From a virus, in the IMG/VR virus record IMGVR_UViG_3300047453_000406, positions 1 through 20,636 of that record: a stretch of DNA of 20,636 nt; one strand, 5' to 3'. Below are positions 4,198 through 20,636 of this stretch, one piece after another; position 1 is the first letter of the stretch, and each line of letters begins with the position of its first letter. A program made the translations under genes and the position numbers. The notes under the pieces are model-generated. The model had not been told where the DNA came from, did no database searches, and was given only the letters and a program-made list of their open reading frames with translations.

Positions 4198-5178
4198 TTA
4201 ATATGCGTTATTTAGATATTCACTGTGAGATTCTGCCGATGTGCTGATTCGTTGCAGGTCCCACTTTCCGCAGAATCTTAAGAAGTGTACACCTACTTGG
4301 CTTGCAGGAACTTTTTGTACCTGTATTGTAATAGCTTCGTCTAACTTATCTTTAATCTCATCAGGTTGTTGTGTGAGATCAATTAGTGTTACATTACGTT
4401 GATAGTCATCAAGTACTCTATGCTCTTCGCCATTGTGATCACTCCAACGTTGTAGCATCATATTATTCCAATCAAAGCCTTTAGACTCTTTGTCAGCAAA
4501 TGCTTCTAATAGTCCAACTTTATTTTTACTGCCTTTTTTACGAACACCTGGATAAGCACTAAACACATTATCACTGCTATCGCCTCGCATACACTTTTCA
4601 AATAGCAACCACTTAGGATCACCAATTTGTTTTTGCTCACCTGTTTTATTATCTATAACAGGTTTGCCTTTGTCGTTTACGATACCATCTAGTTTAATGT
4701 GTTGATTAGTAATGCCATTGTACTGTGTTACTTTGTCTGTAAGCAACTGATAAAAGTCGCTGTCTGAACTTACAATAACATGTTCATCATCAGGATGATT
4801 CTGTATCCAACGTGCAATAAAGTCATCAGCTTCACACTCAGCATGTTGTAATACTGTACAGTTTGTTCGCTTGTCTAAAAATTCTTTAAGCTCGTCAAAG
4901 GCTTGCCAAAATGCTTGATCTTCTTCTTGCTCAGCAGGAGTTAGTGCGTCACGAGCTACTTTACGATTTGCCTTGTAAGGCTCGTAAAAGTCTTTGCGCC
5001 AACTGCGACCTTCTAAACAAAATACAACATGACTACCACCAAAGTCTCTATAGGCTTTGAGTATGCTAGCAAACATAATATGATATGCCATGCCAATTTT
5101 AGTCTCAATACTATCGCCCCGTACTACATGCCTAGCACGGAAAAACATGTTTGCAGTGTCTACTAGAATATATGTCAT
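4198..5178 (-). CDS. rnh: T4 RNase H / flap-type 5'-3' nuclease
   Basis: A FEN-family 5' nuclease of 326 residues, close to T4 RNase H (305). It would remove RNA primers and 5' flaps during phage DNA replication. Visible metal-site acids: D7 (ILVDTANMFFRARH), E56, the E114-E116-D118-D119 cluster (ECEADDF), D139/D141 (SSDSDFYQLL) and D200/D203 (MRGDSSDN). The YKANR helical-gateway motif is at 68-72, and YPGVRKKGSKNK near 209-220 fits the helix-hairpin-helix DNA-binding region. It is the first gene after its own promoter (5206-5234). The ATG at 5178 matches the family N-terminus. The family is certain; whether it is the replicative nuclease is inferred. Confidence 0.93.
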   Translation of the reverse strand: MTYILVDTANMFFRARHVVRGDSIETKIGMAYHIMFASILKAYRDFGGSHVVFCLEGRSWRKDFYEPYKANRKVARDALTPAEQEEDQAFWQAFDELKEFLDKRTNCTVLQHAECEADDFIARWIQNHPDDEHVIVSSDSDFYQLLTDKVTQYNGITNQHIKLDGIVNDKGKPVIDNKTGEQKQIGDPKWLLFEKCMRGDSSDNVFSAYPGVRKKGSKNKVGLLEAFADKESKGFDWNNMMLQRWSDHNGEEHRVLDDYQRNVTLIDLTQQPDEIKDKLDEAITIQVQKVPASQVGVHFLRFCGKWDLQRISTSAESHSEYLNNAY

Positions 5179-5613: not shown

Positions 5614-5716
5614 TGGCTTTAGGGGAAGGATTCGAACCTTCACGGTTAAATACTTTGCGAGCTATTCAACCACACGATAAACAGTCGTGCGTGTCTACCA
5701 ATTCCACCACCCTAAA
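5614..5716 (-). tRNA. tRNA with GUU (Asn) anticodon and a long type II variable arm
   Basis: Folds as a full cloverleaf: acceptor TTTAGGG (5710-5716) with CCCTAAA (5618-5624); D-arm GTGGAATTGGTAGACAC, Leu-like; anticodon stem CACGA/TCGTG with loop CTGTTTA, placing GUU at 5680-5682; T-arm GAAGG-TTCGAAT-CCTTC. A long variable arm forms about nine pairs (GGTTGAATA with TATTTAACC). The discriminator is G73 and CCA is encoded, giving 103 bases in all. Type II arms normally belong to Leu, Ser and bacterial Tyr tRNAs, not Asn. G73 plus GUU are Asn identity elements; A73, required for Leu, is absent. U37 next to the anticodon is also unusual. It lies 8 bases after the AsnRS-like gene. Confidence 0.85.
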
Positions 5717-5724
5717 CTATTTGA

Positions 5725-6630
5725 CTACTCCCAGCCGTGTGCATCTAATCCGTCTACTTTCGGATCATGTGCTGGTATAAATGCACCGTTCATCACTTGT
5801 TCTTTATCTTCAAGTGTTTCTAGTGCCGCAATCATTCTTGTCATACCAATGCCTCCACCTACTCGCTCAAAGAAGTCAAACTTGAGAAACTCTTCTAGTT
5901 CTGCTTCAACTCTTTCTTTACCGAATAGTTTGTAAAGTAATTGGCTGTATTCGCCGTCTGTAATTGTGTGGAATGTATCACGCATCATGTCTACATCTGT
6001 ACTACGCTCGGCACTGCCGATTGTTTCCATACCACCTAATATTACATCAATCTTCTTACTATGAACACCATCTTCGTATCTGCTCATATTCCAAAATGGA
6101 CTTGTAAACTCTGGGAAGTCTGTGATAAGTGCAGTAGTATATTCATCAAACATCTTACCTTCTTCTTCAGCAGTCATTTCATAATCGTCTGCTAGCCCAT
6201 AATGTTTTTGCCATTCTCTGTATGTTTTTTCTGTGGGTTTTTCAAAGCCCAAGTAATCTACTAGTTCATATTCCATTGCTTTAAGGTCATCTATTGTACC
6301 TGGCATTTCAAATTCAAACATTGGAAAAATGATATCGTGTCTGCCTGGTATAGCATTTGGTTCCTGTCTATAACTTGTGCTGACACAAAAAAAGCCCTTA
6401 CTATCGGGCTTGCGTAGGAGTTCATGTTCTAACCACATCTGTCCCGTCTGGGGTAGTGGCCAAACTTCACCTGCATAATTGTATGTTGCTACATTGAACG
6501 GATCTTCACATGCGGCAAGTATGCTTAGTCTGTTTTGGGTATGTACTTCGTCAAACCCTTTGTCTAAAAAAAAGGACCTTAGAAGGCCCACTGTTTTCGT
6601 AAATTTCTTCGGATCTATTAGTTGTGTCAT
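5725..6630 (-). CDS. Asparaginyl-tRNA-synthetase-like class II catalytic core without anticodon-binding domain
   Basis: 301 residues covering only the class IIb (Asp/Asn/Lys) catalytic core. Visible: the TGQMWLEHEL segment (62-71), matching the SGQLxxE of AsnRS; motif 2 Y87-R88-Q-E90 with R97-H98 and FEFE (105-108); a METIGSAERS segment (201-210) equivalent to the E-x-I-G...R of AsnRS; and motif 3 GGGIGMTR (258-265). The N-terminal OB-fold that reads the anticodon is missing. Such free-standing cores include archaeal asparagine synthetases (about 290 residues), which amidate aspartate without tRNA. Alternatively it may charge the adjacent type II GUU tRNA by recognising acceptor or variable arm. 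It has its own promoter and an AAAGAGGAAAAA ribosome site, and is co-transcribed with the tRNA. Confidence 0.85.
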   Translation of the reverse strand: MTQLIDPKKFTKTVGLLRSFFLDKGFDEVHTQNRLSILAACEDPFNVATYNYAGEVWPLPQTGQMWLEHELLRKPDSKGFFCVSTSYRQEPNAIPGRHDIIFPMFEFEMPGTIDDLKAMEYELVDYLGFEKPTEKTYREWQKHYGLADDYEMTAEEEGKMFDEYTTALITDFPEFTSPFWNMSRYEDGVHSKKIDVILGGMETIGSAERSTDVDMMRDTFHTITDGEYSQLLYKLFGKERVEAELEEFLKFDFFERVGGGIGMTRMIAALETLEDKEQVMNGAFIPAHDPKVDGLDAHGWE

Positions 6631-8658: not shown

Positions 8659-8870
8659 TTTTGAAACCTTTTCCATGTTTCGTGTAGTACATAAAACCAA
8701 ACACCATTGATCAAAGGTTCTACTATTGCATCTATTGTAGCAAGTTCGAGACTTGCTCCTGTTATAACCATCACACATACGATTGCTATCAGCATGTGTC
8801 CTATTGTATATACGATAGCAAGTGTTAAACTACTACCACCTACTATCCATTTTATTGTATCATTCAACAT
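8655..8870 (-). CDS. DUF2061-like small membrane protein
   Basis: 71 residues with two hydrophobic helices. The second half (TGASLELATIDAIVEPLINGVWFYVLHETWKRFQK) follows the DUF2061 pattern: LE.A......E.......YY.HE..W. Proteins of this family are small two-helix membrane proteins of unknown function. The ATG at 8870 lies 11 bases inside the upstream phosphoribosyltransferase gene; a longer reading would overlap almost half of that gene and is rejected. GAGAGA precedes the start. Confidence 0.75.
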   Translation of the reverse strand: MLNDTIKWIVGGSSLTLAIVYTIGHMLIAIVCVMVITGASLELATIDAIVEPLINGVWFYVLHETWKRFQK

Positions 8871-9267
8871 TGGGTCTCTCTGGCATTGTAAACAATGCTC
8901 TAACTTTATCATTTTCTGGTATTGGCTTTCTAGCAAATATGCACCACTTGTAAGCAAACATAGTTTCTTTTGTTGTACAAAATTCTCTAAAACTTGTGCC
9001 TGTTGTGTACACATCATCTACAACCATCCAAGGATGGTCACCAGGTGTTATATATTTTTCCATTGCATTTTGTAGTGGTAGTCCACCTCTTGGAATACCT
9101 ACTACTTTACTAAATGGTTCTGTTTGATAATCCATTATCATTCTAGCAAGTCCGTCCCACCATTGGGGTCGTATAGCATCACATTCAATCTTCCAAGAAA
9201 GCGGAATACCTGCATGACTTATAAAGTCAACTTGTTCAAATAAATCTGCATTTGTTCTAAATGTCAT
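8860..9267 (-). CDS. Phosphoribosyltransferase-family protein, OPRT-like
   Basis: 135 residues with a type I PRTase core: VVGIPRGGLPL (56-65) forms the first phosphate loop and the PRPP motif is VVDDVYTTGTS (82-92). It is shorter than orotate phosphoribosyltransferase (about 210), lacking most of the hood region that binds the base, so the substrate cannot be read off. It may be a PRPP-dependent salvage enzyme or a regulator. The ATG at 9267 has GAGGTAACAA before it, overlapping the stop of the DUF454 gene. It is one of three PRTases in this window. Confidence 0.82.
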   Translation of the reverse strand: MTFRTNADLFEQVDFISHAGIPLSWKIECDAIRPQWWDGLARMIMDYQTEPFSKVVGIPRGGLPLQNAMEKYITPGDHPWMVVDDVYTTGTSFREFCTTKETMFAYKWCIFARKPIPENDKVRALFTMPERPNVE

Positions 9268-9270
9268 TTG

Positions 9271-9684
9271 TTACCTCAACCATGCTACACGTTCTCCAGC
9301 TTCTACTCTTCTTGTATGTTCTTCAACACTGCCTGGATAACGCCATGCCCACACTGCAACACCTGCCATAAATGTACCGCTGTATATGACAGCTTTTGCA
9401 TTGCCTGTTCCGATCCAAGTAAAAGCAAGTGTACTTGCCATAACTATGACCATTGCATATTTCCCTTTAGTTGGAAATACTCGCTTGGTGTTCCAATTTG
9501 TTAAAAATTTACCGAACCATGGATGATTGTATAACCAAGCCTCCATCTTTGGTGAACTTTTAGCAAATGCCCACGCCGCTATTACTAGAAATATACTAAA
9601 TGGAATACCGGGTGTAACTATCCCAATGTAAGCCAAGCCTACACAGATAAACCCAATACCCATATAAAAATATTTTTTTACCAT
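9271..9684 (-). CDS. DUF454 (YbaN-like) inner-membrane protein
   Basis: 137 residues. The family core is clear: GIVTPGIPFSIFLVIAAWAF (about residues 22-41), then AKSSPKMEAWLYNHPWFGKF and a conserved N-W...R..P segment, followed by two more hydrophobic helices. This matches DUF454/YbaN, four-helix inner-membrane proteins of unknown function. The ATG at 9684 has GGGAGAA upstream and overlaps the stop of metK (ATGGTAA); a 17-residue longer form inside metK is rejected. Why a phage carries it is unknown; it could alter the host inner membrane. Confidence 0.85.
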   Translation of the reverse strand: MVKKYFYMGIGFICVGLAYIGIVTPGIPFSIFLVIAAWAFAKSSPKMEAWLYNHPWFGKFLTNWNTKRVFPTKGKYAMVIVMASTLAFTWIGTGNAKAVIYSGTFMAGVAVWAWRYPGSVEEHTRRVEAGERVAWLR

Positions 9685-10760
9685 CCTATATTCTCCCACG
9701 GAACATCTTTGTTTCCAAAGTGTCCGTATACACAATTTTTGCTGTATTCAGTATATTTGAATAGATCAAATCTGTCAATAATACCTTTGGGTGTAAGATC
9801 AATGTTTTCTTTAATGAACTTTTGAATACTGCGATTGTGTCCATTCGAGTCTACATAAATGCTTGTGGGCTCTTTAACACCAATAGCATAACTAAGTTGA
9901 ATCTGACACCAGTCTGCCATATCATCTGCTACTACGTTCTTTGCTAACCACCTTGCTATGTACGCCGCGGATCTGTCGACCTTTGTGGGGTCTTTTCCAC
10001 TAAAAGCGCCACCGCCATGGGGAGCAAACCCACCATAAGTATCAACGATAATCTTACGCCCGGTGACTCCTGTGTCGCCATCAGGACCACCAACGACAAA
10101 ATTGCCTGTAGGATTGATGTGCCATGTAGTATTGTCATCTATTAAATCTCCTAATACTTGTTCTGCGGCACTCTTCACAGGCATCTTTACACTGTGATGA
10201 AAGCCTTGGTCGTGTTGAGTACTTACCACAATTTGATCAATACGTTTAACTTTGCCGCCTTCATACTCAACACTTACTTGCGATTTTGCATCAGGTTTTA
10301 AGTAGTCATAACCATCTAGCCTCATTGCATGAAGTGTTTTTAAAATTTCGTGGCTGTAATAAATTGGTGCTGGCATGTATGCTTCGTTCTCATTGCTAGC
10401 ATAGCCAAACATAATGCCTTGGTCACCGGCTCCAAAGTCGTCCGTTCCCAATCCAATGTCACCACTTTGTGCATGAATTTCATTATAAATTTTTAGTTTA
10501 TCCCAATGAAACCCATCTTGCTCATAACCAATTTGTTTAACTTTGTTACGAACAATTTCTTCTACGTTGTCTACATTAAAGTTTTTTACTTCACCTGCTA
10601 ACGTTACCATATTGGTAGTTACAAGTGTTTCTATTGCTACTCTGGTGGTTTCGTCACCATTAGCTAGTCCAGCATCTAGTAGTGCATCACTAATTTGATC
10701 CGCCACTTTATCTGGGTGTCCATCACTAACACTTTCGCTAGTGAAAATATAATTTACCAT
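9678..10760 (-). CDS. metK: S-adenosylmethionine synthase
   Basis: Makes SAM from ATP and methionine. 360 residues, slightly shorter than the roughly 384 of bacterial MetK, but all landmarks are present: GHPDK (14-18), the GAGDQGIMFGY signature (110-120), GRKIIVDTYGG (about 234-244) and the P-loop-like GGGAFSGKDPTKVDRSAAY (249-267). The C-terminus ends soon after the conserved FPWE-equivalent VPWENIGW. AAGGAAAGCAGG precedes the ATG at 10760. It follows queE, whose product is a SAM-dependent radical enzyme, so SAM supply for that step or for DNA methylation is a reasonable role. No disabling change is visible. Confidence 0.96.
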   Translation of the reverse strand: MVNYIFTSESVSDGHPDKVADQISDALLDAGLANGDETTRVAIETLVTTNMVTLAGEVKNFNVDNVEEIVRNKVKQIGYEQDGFHWDKLKIYNEIHAQSGDIGLGTDDFGAGDQGIMFGYASNENEAYMPAPIYYSHEILKTLHAMRLDGYDYLKPDAKSQVSVEYEGGKVKRIDQIVVSTQHDQGFHHSVKMPVKSAAEQVLGDLIDDNTTWHINPTGNFVVGGPDGDTGVTGRKIIVDTYGGFAPHGGGAFSGKDPTKVDRSAAYIARWLAKNVVADDMADWCQIQLSYAIGVKEPTSIYVDSNGHNRSIQKFIKENIDLTPKGIIDRFDLFKYTEYSKNCVYGHFGNKDVPWENIGW

Positions 10761-10823
10761 CCTGCTTTCCTTATTGCATCTTGGTCAATGGGTGCCTTCA
10801 TTGCCTTTTTTAATTGATTGTTA

Positions 10824-11720
10824 TCATGTACCCCAGGCATTTCCGAATAGGCTGATGTGGAGTCTGGGTGTAAACCTCCAACCCTTTTCCATGCAGATGT
10901 TGGCAACTTCTTGGACATTGAGATTATACTCTTCCGATCTGCCACCCAACGGCATAAGGTATACAGGACATTCCACACCTGCTTCGCGGTAAGCTTCAAC
11001 AGCTCTACCAGCTTCTTCGATATCAGTACGATCAGCGACAACAAACTTGAGATACAAGTCACTGCCGTCCACAAGACTGTACTCATAAGCAACTTCAGGT
11101 TTAATAGCAGTATCCCAAGGTTCTCCGCTAACACTAAGTTTCGGGGAACATGACCATGTGACAGTAATTCTGTCGCTGTCGTGGAGATAGTTGTAGAGAT
11201 CGTCGTGTAAGTGTTGTGTAGTGTTTGTTTCAAATGTAACATTCTTTAAGTCCTGCATACGTGGATGTTCAAATAATTCAACGTACAATCGTTGCCACGC
11301 CAACAAAGGTTCGCCACCAGTCATAATCAAATGCACATCTTGTCCATTATCCATTGTCCACTTACCTTCGGGCAGTAAACTAATCAAATGTTCTACAACT
11401 TCATCAACTGTAGCTTGTCGATTAAAGTGTTTAAACTCTGGATAGATACTAGCATATGTATCACAGCCTGTGTGTATAATGGGCAAGTCTTCAAATACTT
11501 TTGTTTTTTCATGTACACCCATATCAAGTAAGCCCATTACTTCTTGATTGTGTATAACACCTTGTTTTTGTTTTACGTCACGCATTGGCTCGCTTCGATC
11601 AAGTCCAAAGTTCATGCAACGAAAGTTACAACCAAAAGTACGCAGGAACACACTAGGCACTCCTACGAACTTTCCTTCACCTTGTACACTATAAAAGGCT
11701 TCGCTATATCTTAGTTTCAT
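10824..11720 (-). CDS. queE: 7-carboxy-7-deazaguanine synthase-like radical SAM protein
   Basis: QueE converts 6-carboxy-tetrahydropterin to 7-carboxy-7-deazaguanine, a step to preQ0 used for queuosine or for phage DNA modification. Family marks: SVQGEGKFVGVPSVFLRTFG (11-30), TGGEPLL (134-140) and the C-terminal LFGNAWGT. The cluster-binding cysteines are unusual: C31 and C35 are in place, but the third of the usual CX3CX2C is absent (position 38 is Phe). C86 in HTGCDTYAS, after an insertion of about 50 residues, is the best candidate. At 298 residues it is longer than cellular QueE (about 220-245). The start immediately follows the stop of the upstream gene (TAA-ATG). folE near the right edge would feed the same pathway. 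Confidence 0.9.
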   Translation of the reverse strand: MKLRYSEAFYSVQGEGKFVGVPSVFLRTFGCNFRCMNFGLDRSEPMRDVKQKQGVIHNQEVMGLLDMGVHEKTKVFEDLPIIHTGCDTYASIYPEFKHFNRQATVDEVVEHLISLLPEGKWTMDNGQDVHLIMTGGEPLLAWQRLYVELFEHPRMQDLKNVTFETNTTQHLHDDLYNYLHDSDRITVTWSCSPKLSVSGEPWDTAIKPEVAYEYSLVDGSDLYLKFVVADRTDIEEAGRAVEAYREAGVECPVYLMPLGGRSEEYNLNVQEVANICMEKGWRFTPRLHISLFGNAWGT

Positions 11721-17620: not shown

Positions 17621-18394
17621 TTAACTCCCTTTCATTTCTGATTCATGCCATTTACGCATCAACAGCCAACCGACGGTCTGTATTGTCATAAAAAATGCAA
17701 AGCCTAAGCCTGTCGCTGTTAGTATAAGCGCCATAACTAATGCTGTTTCTAAGTTTGATTGTGCATAGATAATTTGTATTCCTAATCCACCTTCTTCACT
17801 ACCACTGCCGATAATGAACTCGCCTACAATAGCACCGATAACACTAAGTCCTGCACTAATTTTTAGACCAGCAAAAATATTTGGTATTGCGGCAGGAAAC
17901 CTAAGTTTATAAAATGTACTAAATTTGTTTGTTTTGTGATAGTTAAACATCTCAACTAGTGTTGTATTTGTACTTTTTAGTCCTAGCAGTGTATTGTTTA
18001 TGATAGGAAATAGTGCAATAATAACACTTATAATGATTATACTTTTAATCTCAAAACCAAACCACAGTACAATTAGTGGTGCGACAGCAACAATAGGCAC
18101 TGTCTGTAGTAGTATCGCATATGGATATAAACTACGTTCTAGTATTTTACTTAGGCTCATTATAGTTGCTACACTAATACCTAACAGTGCCGCAATAATA
18201 TATCCTAAAAAAGCCGCTGTAAATGTTTGTGCTAGTCCAATCATAATAATGTCGAAGTCTGCAACAAATTGTTGTGCTACGGCCCAAGGTGTAGGTAATA
18301 AAAATGCCATGTCATACACCAATGCACCTAAATGCCAACTGCCTAAAAATAGTACAAGTATTAGCACAGGTGGTAATATCTTTTTTATCTCCAT
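17621..18394 (-). CDS. ABC transporter permease, ThiX/SsuC/TauC type
   Basis: 257 residues, about six membrane helices, beginning near residue 5. The BPD_transp_1 landmark EAA loop is present as FYKLRFPAAIPNIFAGLKISAGL (about 161-183) followed by IGAIVGEF, which contacts the ATPase. The LLPTPW segment near residue 32 is typical of the nitrate/sulfonate/thiamine-precursor permeases. It overlaps the ATPase gene by 10 bases and is directly followed by the oxygenase gene. The full set of binding protein, ATPase and permease suggests a functional importer. Confidence 0.92.
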   Translation of the reverse strand: MEIKKILPPVLILVLFLGSWHLGALVYDMAFLLPTPWAVAQQFVADFDIIMIGLAQTFTAAFLGYIIAALLGISVATIMSLSKILERSLYPYAILLQTVPIVAVAPLIVLWFGFEIKSIIIISVIIALFPIINNTLLGLKSTNTTLVEMFNYHKTNKFSTFYKLRFPAAIPNIFAGLKISAGLSVIGAIVGEFIIGSGSEEGGLGIQIIYAQSNLETALVMALILTATGLGFAFFMTIQTVGWLLMRKWHESEMKGS

Positions 18395-19089
18395 GTTCTT
18401 AACTTTCCTGATATATCATTTACCAGTTTTGTAAACTGTGGTTTTGTTCTAATGTCTGGTGTTCGTTTTTTAAATGGTATATCTACAATATCTGTAATTT
18501 TACCTGGACGTGGACTCATGACGACAACTCTATTACTTAGATAAACTGCCTCTGCTATGTTGTGTGTTACAAGTATAGCAGTGAACTTATCTCTGGTCCA
18601 CATGTTGTGTAATTCTTCTTGCAGGACTTCTCTTGTTAATTCGTCTACTGCACTTAGTGGCTCATCTAGCAATATGTATTGTGGGTCTAATACTAAACTT
18701 CTTGCTAGGCTTAATCGCATCTTCATACCGCCACTTAGTTGATGCGGATAACTGTTTTCAAATCCCGTTAGACCAACTTGCTCTAATGCTGTACGGGCTT
18801 TGTCTTTTTTATTGTCAGTGCCTTCTAGTTCCATTAATAGTTCTACATTACGTTGTACTGTACGCCAAGGTAACAATGCACTATCTTGGAATACAAAAGC
18901 ACCTTTACTGGGTTTACTAACACTTCCATTTGTTTCAACTAGGTCAGCAATCACACGAAGTAGGGTAGATTTGCCACAGCCTGAAGGTCCAACAATACTG
19001 ATGAACTCGCCTGTGGCAATATCTAAGTTTACTTCTGCTAGTGCTTGAACTTCGTCAAAGTGTTTACTTACTTTGGAAATTGCAATCAC
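18385..19089 (-). CDS. ABC transporter ATPase, ThiZ/SsuB/TauB type, GTG start
   Basis: 234 residues with Walker A GPSGCGKST (34-42), Q68 in VFQDSALLPW, signature LSGGM (118-122), Walker B YILLDEP (138-144) and H176 in LVTHN, all intact. LLPWRTV after the Q-loop is typical of the nitrate/sulfonate/thiamine-precursor subfamily. The start is GTG at 19089, with AAGAGGT seven bases upstream overlapping the stop of the binding-protein gene. It energises the adjacent permease. Confidence 0.94.
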   Translation of the reverse strand: MIAISKVSKHFDEVQALAEVNLDIATGEFISIVGPSGCGKSTLLRVIADLVETNGSVSKPSKGAFVFQDSALLPWRTVQRNVELLMELEGTDNKKDKARTALEQVGLTGFENSYPHQLSGGMKMRLSLARSLVLDPQYILLDEPLSAVDELTREVLQEELHNMWTRDKFTAILVTHNIAEAVYLSNRVVVMSPRPGKITDIVDIPFKKRTPDIRTKPQFTKLVNDISGKLRTWR

Positions 19090-19101
19090 AGCGGCTACCT
19101 C

Positions 19102-20037
19102 TTACTCGCAGTTGCCGAGAAACGATAGATTGAAACTACTTCCTGGATTGAAATCACTAGGTACAACATCAACTTCTTTCAGTTGTTCTGCTAGTTCTTC
19201 CCAACGAGCAGTTTTCATGCAACCTAGTTTGCTGTAGTCCTTAGGAAGAAATTCTTCTTTCATAAGTTTAACAGCATTCATATGAATCGCTGGTGTAACC
19301 TTTTTACTCTTACCTAAGATCAAATCCATAGTTGGTTTTGGATTGTTAAGAGATTTAACAAAAGCCGCTCTAAGTCTATCTACAACTTCTTGTACTAGCT
19401 CTGGATTTTCGTCAATCATCTTTTGTGTAGTAAACAGTGTGCTATATGGTTTATAGCCCAAGTCTGCTACTTTAATTTGCTCGTTAGCAATACCTTTATC
19501 TTCAAGTCTTGCTGGAAGAAAGATTGAATATCCCTGTTGGAACATTTCAGGTGTTCTACCAAATAAAGCCAAGTCGCCTTTTAGTGGGAATTCGTCAGCA
19601 CTAATGCCGTACTCTTTCTTAATCCACTTCCAGTATGTAATACCTGGAACAACTGCAAAACGTCTGCCGTCTAAATCCTGCACAGTTTCGATGCCTTGGT
19701 CCGGATGGAATACTAGTGTATACGGAACGTGATCCAAGTTAGCAAATACTGCCACTAGTCCTGCACCTTTTGAGTTAGCCATCATAACTGAATCAGAACC
19801 ATTAAGTCCAAATTCAACTTGTCCAGATGCTACTAGGTTTGCAGTCTTAACGCCTGGTCCGCCAGCTTTGATATTAATTTTCAAATCGTGATTATCATTA
19901 TCAAGCATTGCTTGCCAGAATACGCTTTGGTTACCTTGGGGGAACCAATCCATAAGCAAAGTTACTTCTTTTGCTTGTACAGTTGTTGCGAATAGTAATG
20001 CTACTACACTAACTGTTAGTGATTTTAATAGTTTCAT
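19102..20037 (-). CDS. NMT1/THI5-like periplasmic substrate-binding protein
   Basis: 311 residues. Signal peptide MKLLKSLTVSVVALLFATTVQA, mature protein from about residue 23. The first strand TLLMDWFPQGNQSVFWQAM matches the LDWFPN..H region of THI5/ThiY/RibY proteins, and ASGQVEFGLNGSD with DLDGRRFAVVPG fits the NMT1 fold. Candidates for the ligand are pyrimidine precursors of thiamine, riboflavin-like molecules or sulfonates; sequence alone does not decide. There is no lipobox, so it is likely a soluble periplasmic protein of a Gram-negative host. A strong AAGAGGAG site lies 9 bases before the ATG. No thiamine riboswitch is visible in the short leader. Confidence 0.9.
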   Translation of the reverse strand: MKLLKSLTVSVVALLFATTVQAKEVTLLMDWFPQGNQSVFWQAMLDNDNHDLKINIKAGGPGVKTANLVASGQVEFGLNGSDSVMMANSKGAGLVAVFANLDHVPYTLVFHPDQGIETVQDLDGRRFAVVPGITYWKWIKKEYGISADEFPLKGDLALFGRTPEMFQQGYSIFLPARLEDKGIANEQIKVADLGYKPYSTLFTTQKMIDENPELVQEVVDRLRAAFVKSLNNPKPTMDLILGKSKKVTPAIHMNAVKLMKEEFLPKDYSKLGCMKTARWEELAEQLKEVDVVPSDFNPGSSFNLSFLGNCE

Positions 20038-20124: not shown

Positions 20125-20636
20125 TTATCTTACTGTTGGTGCAAACTCTTGTTGCAGTTTCACATTATCAATAAACTCTTTCCTCACGTCAGGTTCATCT
20201 TTAAATGCACCTCTAAGCACTGTGGTTTGTGTTAAACTACTGTGTGCTCTAATGCCTCTGTTTTCACAACAACCATGCGTTGCCTGAACATAGACACCAA
20301 CGTGATCTGTTCCGGTGATCTCTTGTATCTTGTTTGCAATCATTACGTTAAGCTCTTCTTGTAATGTTCCACGTCTTGCACACCATTGTGCTATTCGTGT
20401 GTACTTGCTCAGTCCCAATAGTTTAGGACCTGCAATGATACCAATGTATGCCACACCTTTTACTGTTTGGTGATGATGCGAACATAAACTTGTAAGTTCA
20501 CTACGCACAACCAACATACCTTCATAACCACCTTCAATGTAGTTAGGAAATGCACTAGGGTTAGGCATTGGATCATAACGACCAGACATAATTTCATTAA
20601 TATACATCTTAGCCATTCGTCTTGCAGTATCCATAC
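20125..20636 (-). CDS. folE: GTP cyclohydrolase I, cut by the right edge
   Basis: Converts GTP to 7,8-dihydroneopterin triphosphate, the entry point for folate and for 7-deazaguanines. The 169 residues visible are the catalytic part; about 40-50 N-terminal residues lie beyond the edge, as the visible part begins at the family's T-P-x-R-x-A-K-M-Y equivalent. Zinc ligands are C51 and H54 (CSHHHQ) and C122 (ATHGCCENRG). GLSKYTRIAQWCARR (74-88) is the conserved family motif. The ATG at 20634 is internal. With queE it suggests deazaguanine synthesis by the phage. Confidence 0.94.
   Translation of the reverse strand, partial: MDTARRMAKMYINEIMSGRYDPMPNPSAFPNYIEGGYEGMLVVRSELTSLCSHHHQTVKGVAYIGIIAGPKLLGLSKYTRIAQWCARRGTLQEELNVMIANKIQEITGTDHVGVYVQATHGCCENRGIRAHSSLTQTTVLRGAFKDEPDVRKEFIDNVKLQQEFAPTVR

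Follow-up and report, generated by a model that had tools for sequence, protein, structure and literature searches.

Among the closest described systems to the locus reported here is bacterial tRNA-Asn, together with AsnRS or with ND-AspRS and GatCAB. Our locus, found in a stretch of viral DNA of 20,636 nt (the window; positions 1–20,636 of IMG/VR record IMGVR_UViG_3300047453_000406), contains a tRNA and a synthetase-like gene, which we call X. It resembles the bacterial system in the GUU anticodon, the discriminator G73 and the U1–A72 pair, and in having both the catalytic core (class IIb) and the pocket of an AsnRS-type enzyme, but the viral tRNA has a type II body and U37, X is without the OB-fold and the motif 1 proline, and the pair is locked in a viral unit. 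tRNA-Leu, which is of type II, shares the D arm, A15–U48 with G18G19 and the long arm, whereas the viral tRNA has G73 rather than A73, U1–A72 and a GUU anticodon. The archaeal asparagine synthetase related to AsnRS and AspRS (PDB 3p8t) is also a free-standing class IIb domain, of about 290 residues, but X is nearer to AsnRS, has an Asn-type rather than an Asp-type pocket and is linked to a tRNA in viruses. Nuclease-evading phage tRNAs likewise have a fixed anticodon with variable loop neighbours (PMC10264068); in contrast to these, the viral unit has a dedicated synthetase-like partner and a type II body. The tRNA-Asn of the Brevundimonas phages Kikimora and Kabachok and of the Pseudomonas phage KIL2 has GUU, G73, U1–A72 and an extra arm of 13–15 nt, but differs in its canonical CUGUUAA loop and in genomes that are without X. 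Because these tRNAs exist without X, it is the tRNA–X pairing, and not the long-armed tRNA-Asn itself, that is unique to the unit. In a literature search with subscription journals and most preprints outside its range, we found no description of the cyanophage gene, of long-armed phage Asn tRNAs, of orthogonal phage pairs or of an Asn-based pyrimidine route, and within that literature the two-part X–tRNA unit of marine bacterial viruses is undescribed.

The type II tRNA-Asn and its relatives

ARAGORN and Rfam give the same minus-strand coordinates for the window tRNA (RF00005, 48.7 bits against a cut-off of 29; Table 1), and our hand reading agrees with the complete type II cloverleaf and encoded CCA of the original prediction. 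The hand-read structure has an acceptor stem UUUAGGG/CCCUAAA, giving U1–A72, a Leu-like D region (UGGUGGAAUUGGUAGACACG), an anticodon arm CACGA-CUGUUUA-UCGUG with G34 U35 U36 between U33 and U37, a variable region of nine pairs (GGUUGAAUA/UAUUUAACC) and a T arm GAAGG-UUCGAAU-CCUUC followed by G73 and CCA. The Leu-like D-arm, the variable arm of about nine pairs, GUU and G73 had all been correctly predicted. Folding of the strand recovered the anticodon and variable hairpins and not the D arm. The ARAGORN label of the gene (Asp, ATC) is a misregistration, as shorter-armed relatives at the same position are called Asn GTT, and a standard type I Asn fold is ruled out by the alignments. The evidence supports the proposed view of the molecule as a chimera, with a Leu-like body, an Asn anticodon and an Asn acceptor end.

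Table 1. Positions of the X–tRNA unit in the window and of comparable phage tRNA genes
Feature	Sequence	Position	Strand	Basis or remark
Type II tRNA-Asn (GUU), CCA encoded	window	5614..5716	-	ARAGORN, Rfam, hand-read cloverleaf, covariation in relatives
Anticodon GUU	window	5680..5682	-	Loop CUGUUUA at 5678-5684, with U33 and U37
Variable region, 31 nt: 9-bp arm and apical loop containing GCAA	window	5642..5672	-	Alignment, covariation, folding
Discriminator G73	window	5617..5617	-	Sequence; encoded CCA at 5614-5616
Gene X, 301 aa, free-standing class IIb aaRS-like catalytic domain	window	5725..6630	-	Pfam, AF2, Foldseek, linkage
Small phosphoribosyltransferase-like gene, weak unit member	window	8860..9267	-	VDDVYTTGTS motif; 2.2 kb upstream of X
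Type II-like tRNA-Asn without X	Kikimora, Kabachok, KIL2	L439 2995-3078, L445 295-378, L444 287-372		

We surveyed tRNAs near X with no anticodon filter, requiring a Leu-like D arm; the sequence finder imposed pairing on the acceptor, anticodon and T arms and left the variable arm unconstrained. Among the 142 distinct tRNAs obtained, the anticodon is GUU in 141 and GUC in one (locus L175). Because GUU is kept to this extent, the window tRNA is not a sporadic mutant; relatives with other anticodons, which the original prediction had named as the finding that would count against it, come down to this single case. The GUC (Asp) relative (L175:4314-4461, plus strand) has a 79-nt variable region and lies about 500 nt downstream of X, and a TGC anticodon returned for L050 in the unfiltered survey is a misregistered parse.

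The acceptor end is nearly constant. Every one of the 141 GUU relatives has G73 where tRNA-Leu has A73, which supports the predicted loss of Leu identity. The first pair is U1–A72 in 137 of them and A1–U72 in four; U1–A72 is the determinant for amidation by GatCAB (PMC9976931). The anticodon loop is more variable, with U, C and G at position 33 in 133, 7 and 1 of the 141, respectively, and U, A and C at position 37 in 132, 6 and 3. The U37 of the window tRNA, in place of the A37 of bacterial tRNA-Asn, is atypical, as had been claimed, and is shared by most relatives. A37 is the site of t6A in ANN-decoding tRNAs.

The variable region ranges from 11 to 41 nt among the relatives (31 nt in the window), outside the 4–5 nt of a type I loop. 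Covariation is extensive, with 182 cells showing two-sided changes against 50.5 in shuffles and the variable-arm cells 100% paired, and compensatory base-pair changes are also seen in the long-armed subset. Since such changes keep every arm in the relatives, the window tRNA is far beyond what chance would give. The GCAA of the variable-arm loop is invariant in 14 aligned long-armed relatives, for which kinship may account in part. A tRNA that is sporadic or decaying and without function would find a precedent in the L175 relative, with its GUC anticodon and 79-nt variable region, but is contradicted by the covariation and invariance over 141 sequences, and we consider it the least credible explanation of all. 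The family alignments show the Leu-type D loop (A15, G18G19, A20a) and U48. The best matches of the family model in cellular genomes are, where read, tRNA-Leu (one is tRNA-Ser), and among non-cognate phage sequences the one closest to the P-SSM7 tRNA, at 77%, sits in a megaphage tRNA-Leu cluster.

A synthetase-like partner gene

The stop codon of X lies 8 nt before the window tRNA. The original prediction had suggested an orthogonal tRNA with no obvious charging enzyme; this was a good lead, but it overlooked the synthetase-like gene 8 bases upstream. The X product matches Pfam tRNA-synt_2 (the D, K and N synthetases; 6e-14) and belongs to PHROG 29758 (function unknown), with at least 598 relatives in IMG/VR. 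The cultured Prochlorococcus phages P-SSM2, P-SSM5 and P-SSM7 have the X–tRNA pair, with X annotated as a tRNA ligase (T4-GC194 in P-SSM2 and P-SSM7), and this tRNA ligase is merely listed as a sporadic gene in PMC3037559.

An AlphaFold2 model of X, built on a 61-row alignment, has a pLDDT of 91.4 and a pTM of 0.86. Foldseek with this model returned human AsnRS first (6e-17) and P. horikoshii AsnRS at a TM-score of 0.73 by query length, and AsnRS was also at the top of profile searches of PDB sequences. In alignments with AsnRS, AspRS and LysRS, X begins at the catalytic domain; the N-terminal OB-fold anticodon-binding domain is absent, and about 130 residues are missing. The motif 2 and motif 3 arginines (R87 and R264) are invariant, as are E67 and R208 (61 of 61 sequences) of the pocket, which reads QTGQMWLE, whereas the motif 1 proline is replaced by Q31 in the X alignment. 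In AsnRS a Glu and an Arg bind the Asn amide, and in AspRS a Lys binds the Asp carboxylate (PMC7387524). E67 and R208 correspond to this Glu and Arg, and the position of the AspRS lysine is Leu66, which sets X apart from AspRS and ND-AspRS. AACEDP-like and PFxNM motifs are invariant and common to viral and cellular X. Taken together, alignments and modelled fold show X to be a small, putative enzyme derived from the AsnRS/AspRS family, and the pocket suggests that it likely binds or uses asparagine and ATP. AsnA and archaeal asparagine synthetase were rejected as identities for X (at most about 22 bits against NCBIfam cut-offs of 309–389), PADLOC gave no match to a known defence gene, and no X was found on plasmids.

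The tRNA and X are tightly linked. A search by DNA pattern, with no reference to X, found X directly upstream of the tRNA in 75 of 75 informative viral loci. Altogether 80 loci were obtained: X lies at most 400 nt upstream on the same strand in 74, the tRNA overlaps the aligned end of X in one, and the remaining five, whose sequence extends no more than 125 nt further upstream, are uninformative. Searching from X, we found the tRNA in 78 of the 80 best loci, usually 4–10 nt past the stop codon (the exceptions are L041 and L062), and in a second search in 74 of 74 informative loci after leaving out six that ended inside or just past the gene, for a total of 152 of 154. The dependence is one-way, as the tRNA was never seen without X, and X occurs without the tRNA in cells, in megaphages and in L062. 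It is firm that this type II tRNA has Asn identity elements and is genetically locked to X, and we conclude that it is an asparagine acceptor dedicated to X. The asymmetry could also arise innocently, if X in cells made use of their own tRNA-Asn.

In P-SSM2 the paired tRNA is the only tRNA detected. Its gene is actually at 162083-162168 (AY939844.2 / NC_006883.2); the annotation in AY939844.2, at 164094-164179, is about 2 kb off and was apparently left unmoved when the record was revised. In viral contigs with X, ARAGORN also calls permuted (tmRNA*) genes (L013 3097-3478, L039 and L040 3101-3483, L042 5933-6278), that of L042 directly behind the tRNA-Asn.

The tRNA-paired X genes also bear on the meaning of the Asn codons. 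At two columns where cellular X conserves Asn, the tRNA-paired X proteins have AAY-encoded Asn in 36 of 36 residues, and S-adenosylmethionine synthetase likewise has Asn aligned with its conserved Asn residues. Both findings fit the standard code; they are silent on low-level misreading and on which tRNA does the decoding. G1–C72 is the usual pair of tRNA-Ser. The original prediction had raised the possibility that the host SerRS, accepting a long arm plus G73, charges the tRNA and puts Ser at Asn codons, and replacing A73 by G73 reportedly turns leucine identity into serine identity in several contexts (PMC9976931). We disfavour this as very unlikely, given the U1–A72 pair in place of G1–C72 at an acceptor end with G73, the linkage to an Asn-type enzyme and the 36 of 36 AAY residues at the two Asn columns.

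A more straightforward proposal is that the two genes form a viral AsnRS/tRNA pair, in which X would load Asn onto the tRNA without reading the anticodon, relying on the acceptor end and possibly also on the long arm; AAC and AAU in viral proteins would be read by the tRNA. The strict adjacency, the AsnRS-type pocket, the best fold matches to AsnRS and the AAY codons at the conserved Asn columns (two columns only) are consistent with such a pair, and decoding would explain why GUU is kept although X has no anticodon domain. The pair would, however, leave unexplained the pyrimidine context and missing PyrB that go with cellular X (described below), as well as those occurrences of X (cells, megaphages, L062) that have no such tRNA. 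Moreover, U37 and the occasional C or G33 are poor for decoding, and X is without the motif 1 proline (Q31). We therefore regard charging by X as a real possibility to which we give less than even weight. If X does charge the tRNA, the pair would be a natural compact synthetase without an anticodon domain, joined to a structurally distinct tRNA, and a starting point for codon reassignment.

Pyrimidine genes and a possible asparagine carrier

Cellular homologs of X (L094-L166; 46–62% identity) occur in Patescibacteria, Midichloriaceae, Pasteurella atlantica, Chitinophagaceae, DPANN archaea and others. No nearby tRNA of this kind was found at the cellular X loci, except at L142 and in the probably viral records L087-L093, and none was found elsewhere in 18 whole X-bearing genomes except in G017, where the acceptor looks broken. 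The L142 tRNA, from a Methylophilaceae MAG, is a type II GUU tRNA 228 nt behind X (5077-5167, plus strand); its 1–72 and 2–71 positions are mismatched and it has A73, pointing to decay or a sequence error.

About 21 of 67 cellular loci have pyrF, pyrEF, pyrD, a purB/argH-type lyase or purL within 1.5 kb of X, compared with a single one among 30 control loci of 3 kb. In the 18 X-bearing genomes, PyrB and multi-type PyrC are over cut-off in none and CarB in two, compared with 14, 11 and 14, respectively, of 14 positive-control genomes; the PyrC count covers the multi-type, the dimer-type model TIGR00856 lying outside the search. Because these genomes are mostly uncurated MAGs, many of them reduced, auxotrophy or incompleteness may be part of the reason why PyrB and PyrC are absent. 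In a partly overlapping set of 18 X-bearing genomes, 6 have a canonical AsnRS over cut-off. The gene content suggests cellular X as a possible alternative route to dihydroorotate in genomes in which no PyrB, no multi-type PyrC and, mostly, no CarB is detected.

In viruses, a dihydroorotate dehydrogenase (DHODH) homolog (PF01180, 1.6e-16, with L. lactis PyrD among the best PDB matches) is the gene immediately upstream of X in 8 loci. The order DHODH-X-tRNA-phosphoribosyltransferase (PRTase) is seen in L004, L007, L400 and L412, some of which may be overlapping records of one virus. Relatives of the window PRTase adjoin X or X-tRNA in other viral loci; the PRTase call is weak and motif-based, with a Pfam Pribosyltran value of 0.066 for the L007 homolog and no match for the window gene, and no counterpart of the window gene was found in cultured phage records. 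With 80% required on each side, there is no column of the alignment that tells tRNA-paired X from cellular X. In a quick tree, tRNA-paired X branches within cellular X at three or more points, which indicates repeated gain or loss of the tRNA.

We slightly and tentatively favour the view that the tRNA carries asparagine specifically for X, which would use it in pyrimidine synthesis. Viral X and its cellular homologs would form one pyrimidine-linked family, and the homologs are probably the source of dihydroorotate in cells that lack carbamoyl phosphate synthase, PyrB and PyrC. Since adding one carbonyl carbon to asparagine formally gives dihydroorotate, asparagine, bicarbonate and ATP would be a chemically reasonable route to it. 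The tRNA would keep what charging needs (GUU, G73 and U1–A72), with the decoding aids U33 and a purine at 37 relaxed. Asparagine would be loaded by the host AsnRS, by ND-AspRS and GatCAB or by X itself, and X would take the asparagine from the tRNA or act on it there, so that the metabolic asparagine pool would stay apart from translation.

Such a carrier accords with the one-way tie of the tRNA to X (75 of 75 and 152 of 154 informative loci) and with the amide pocket of X, in which E67 and R208 are of AsnRS type and the AspRS lysine is Leu. It also agrees with the pyrimidine neighbours of cellular X and the mostly undetected PyrB, PyrC and CarB, with the viral DHODH-X-tRNA-PRTase order and the lack of any column splitting tRNA-paired from cellular X, and with the odd anticodon loop (U37 in 132 and C or G33 in 8 of 141). 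Several points weigh against it. DHODH is absent from the complete genomes of P-SSM2 and P-SSM7 and from most long X contigs, being present in 4 of about 28; A1–U72 in four tRNAs breaks the GatCAB determinant; U33 is retained in 133 of 141, and the molecule folds like a working tRNA. Where a synthetase-like gene abuts a tRNA gene, a charging pair is still the simplest reading, and the absence of PyrB and PyrC rests on mostly MAG, often reduced genomes and on multi-type PyrC only. The full scheme, in which a poorly decoding viral tRNA-Asn would feed an AsnRS-derived dihydroorotate maker that replaces carbamoyl phosphate synthase, PyrB and PyrC, and in which the cellular members would form an undescribed pyrimidine pathway, is slightly more doubtful than either the carrier or the charging pair.

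X could also be purely metabolic and act on free Asn, with the tRNA as a separate aid, for example a host-charged, anticodon-nuclease-resistant tRNA-Asn that keeps Asn codons readable. Loop mutations around a fixed anticodon match the pattern of nuclease-evading phage tRNAs (PMC10264068), and the Brevundimonas and Pseudomonas phages do have type II-like tRNA-Asn without X. However, the 75 of 75 linkage and the 4–10 nt spacing are hard to explain if the two genes are independent, and we consider this separation improbable.

If X is a pyrimidine enzyme, as its cellular relatives suggest, an alternative dihydroorotate route would be present in many symbionts, Patescibacteria and viruses, with the tRNA taking part in viruses. 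Either function, charging or pyrimidine synthesis, would give a role to PHROG 29758 / T4-GC194, a gene that some 600 or more stretches of marine viral DNA carry. As P-SSM2 and P-SSM7 can be grown, both are open to direct test.

Elsewhere in the window, minus-strand genes at 17621-20037 form an ABC importer-like set, with an NMT1/THI5-like binding protein, an ATPase and a permease; its substrate may be a precursor of thiamine or some other pyrimidine. The minus-strand regions 9678-11720 and 20125-20634 carry S-adenosylmethionine synthetase, QueE-like and GTP cyclohydrolase I genes, which suggest 7-deazaguanine chemistry.
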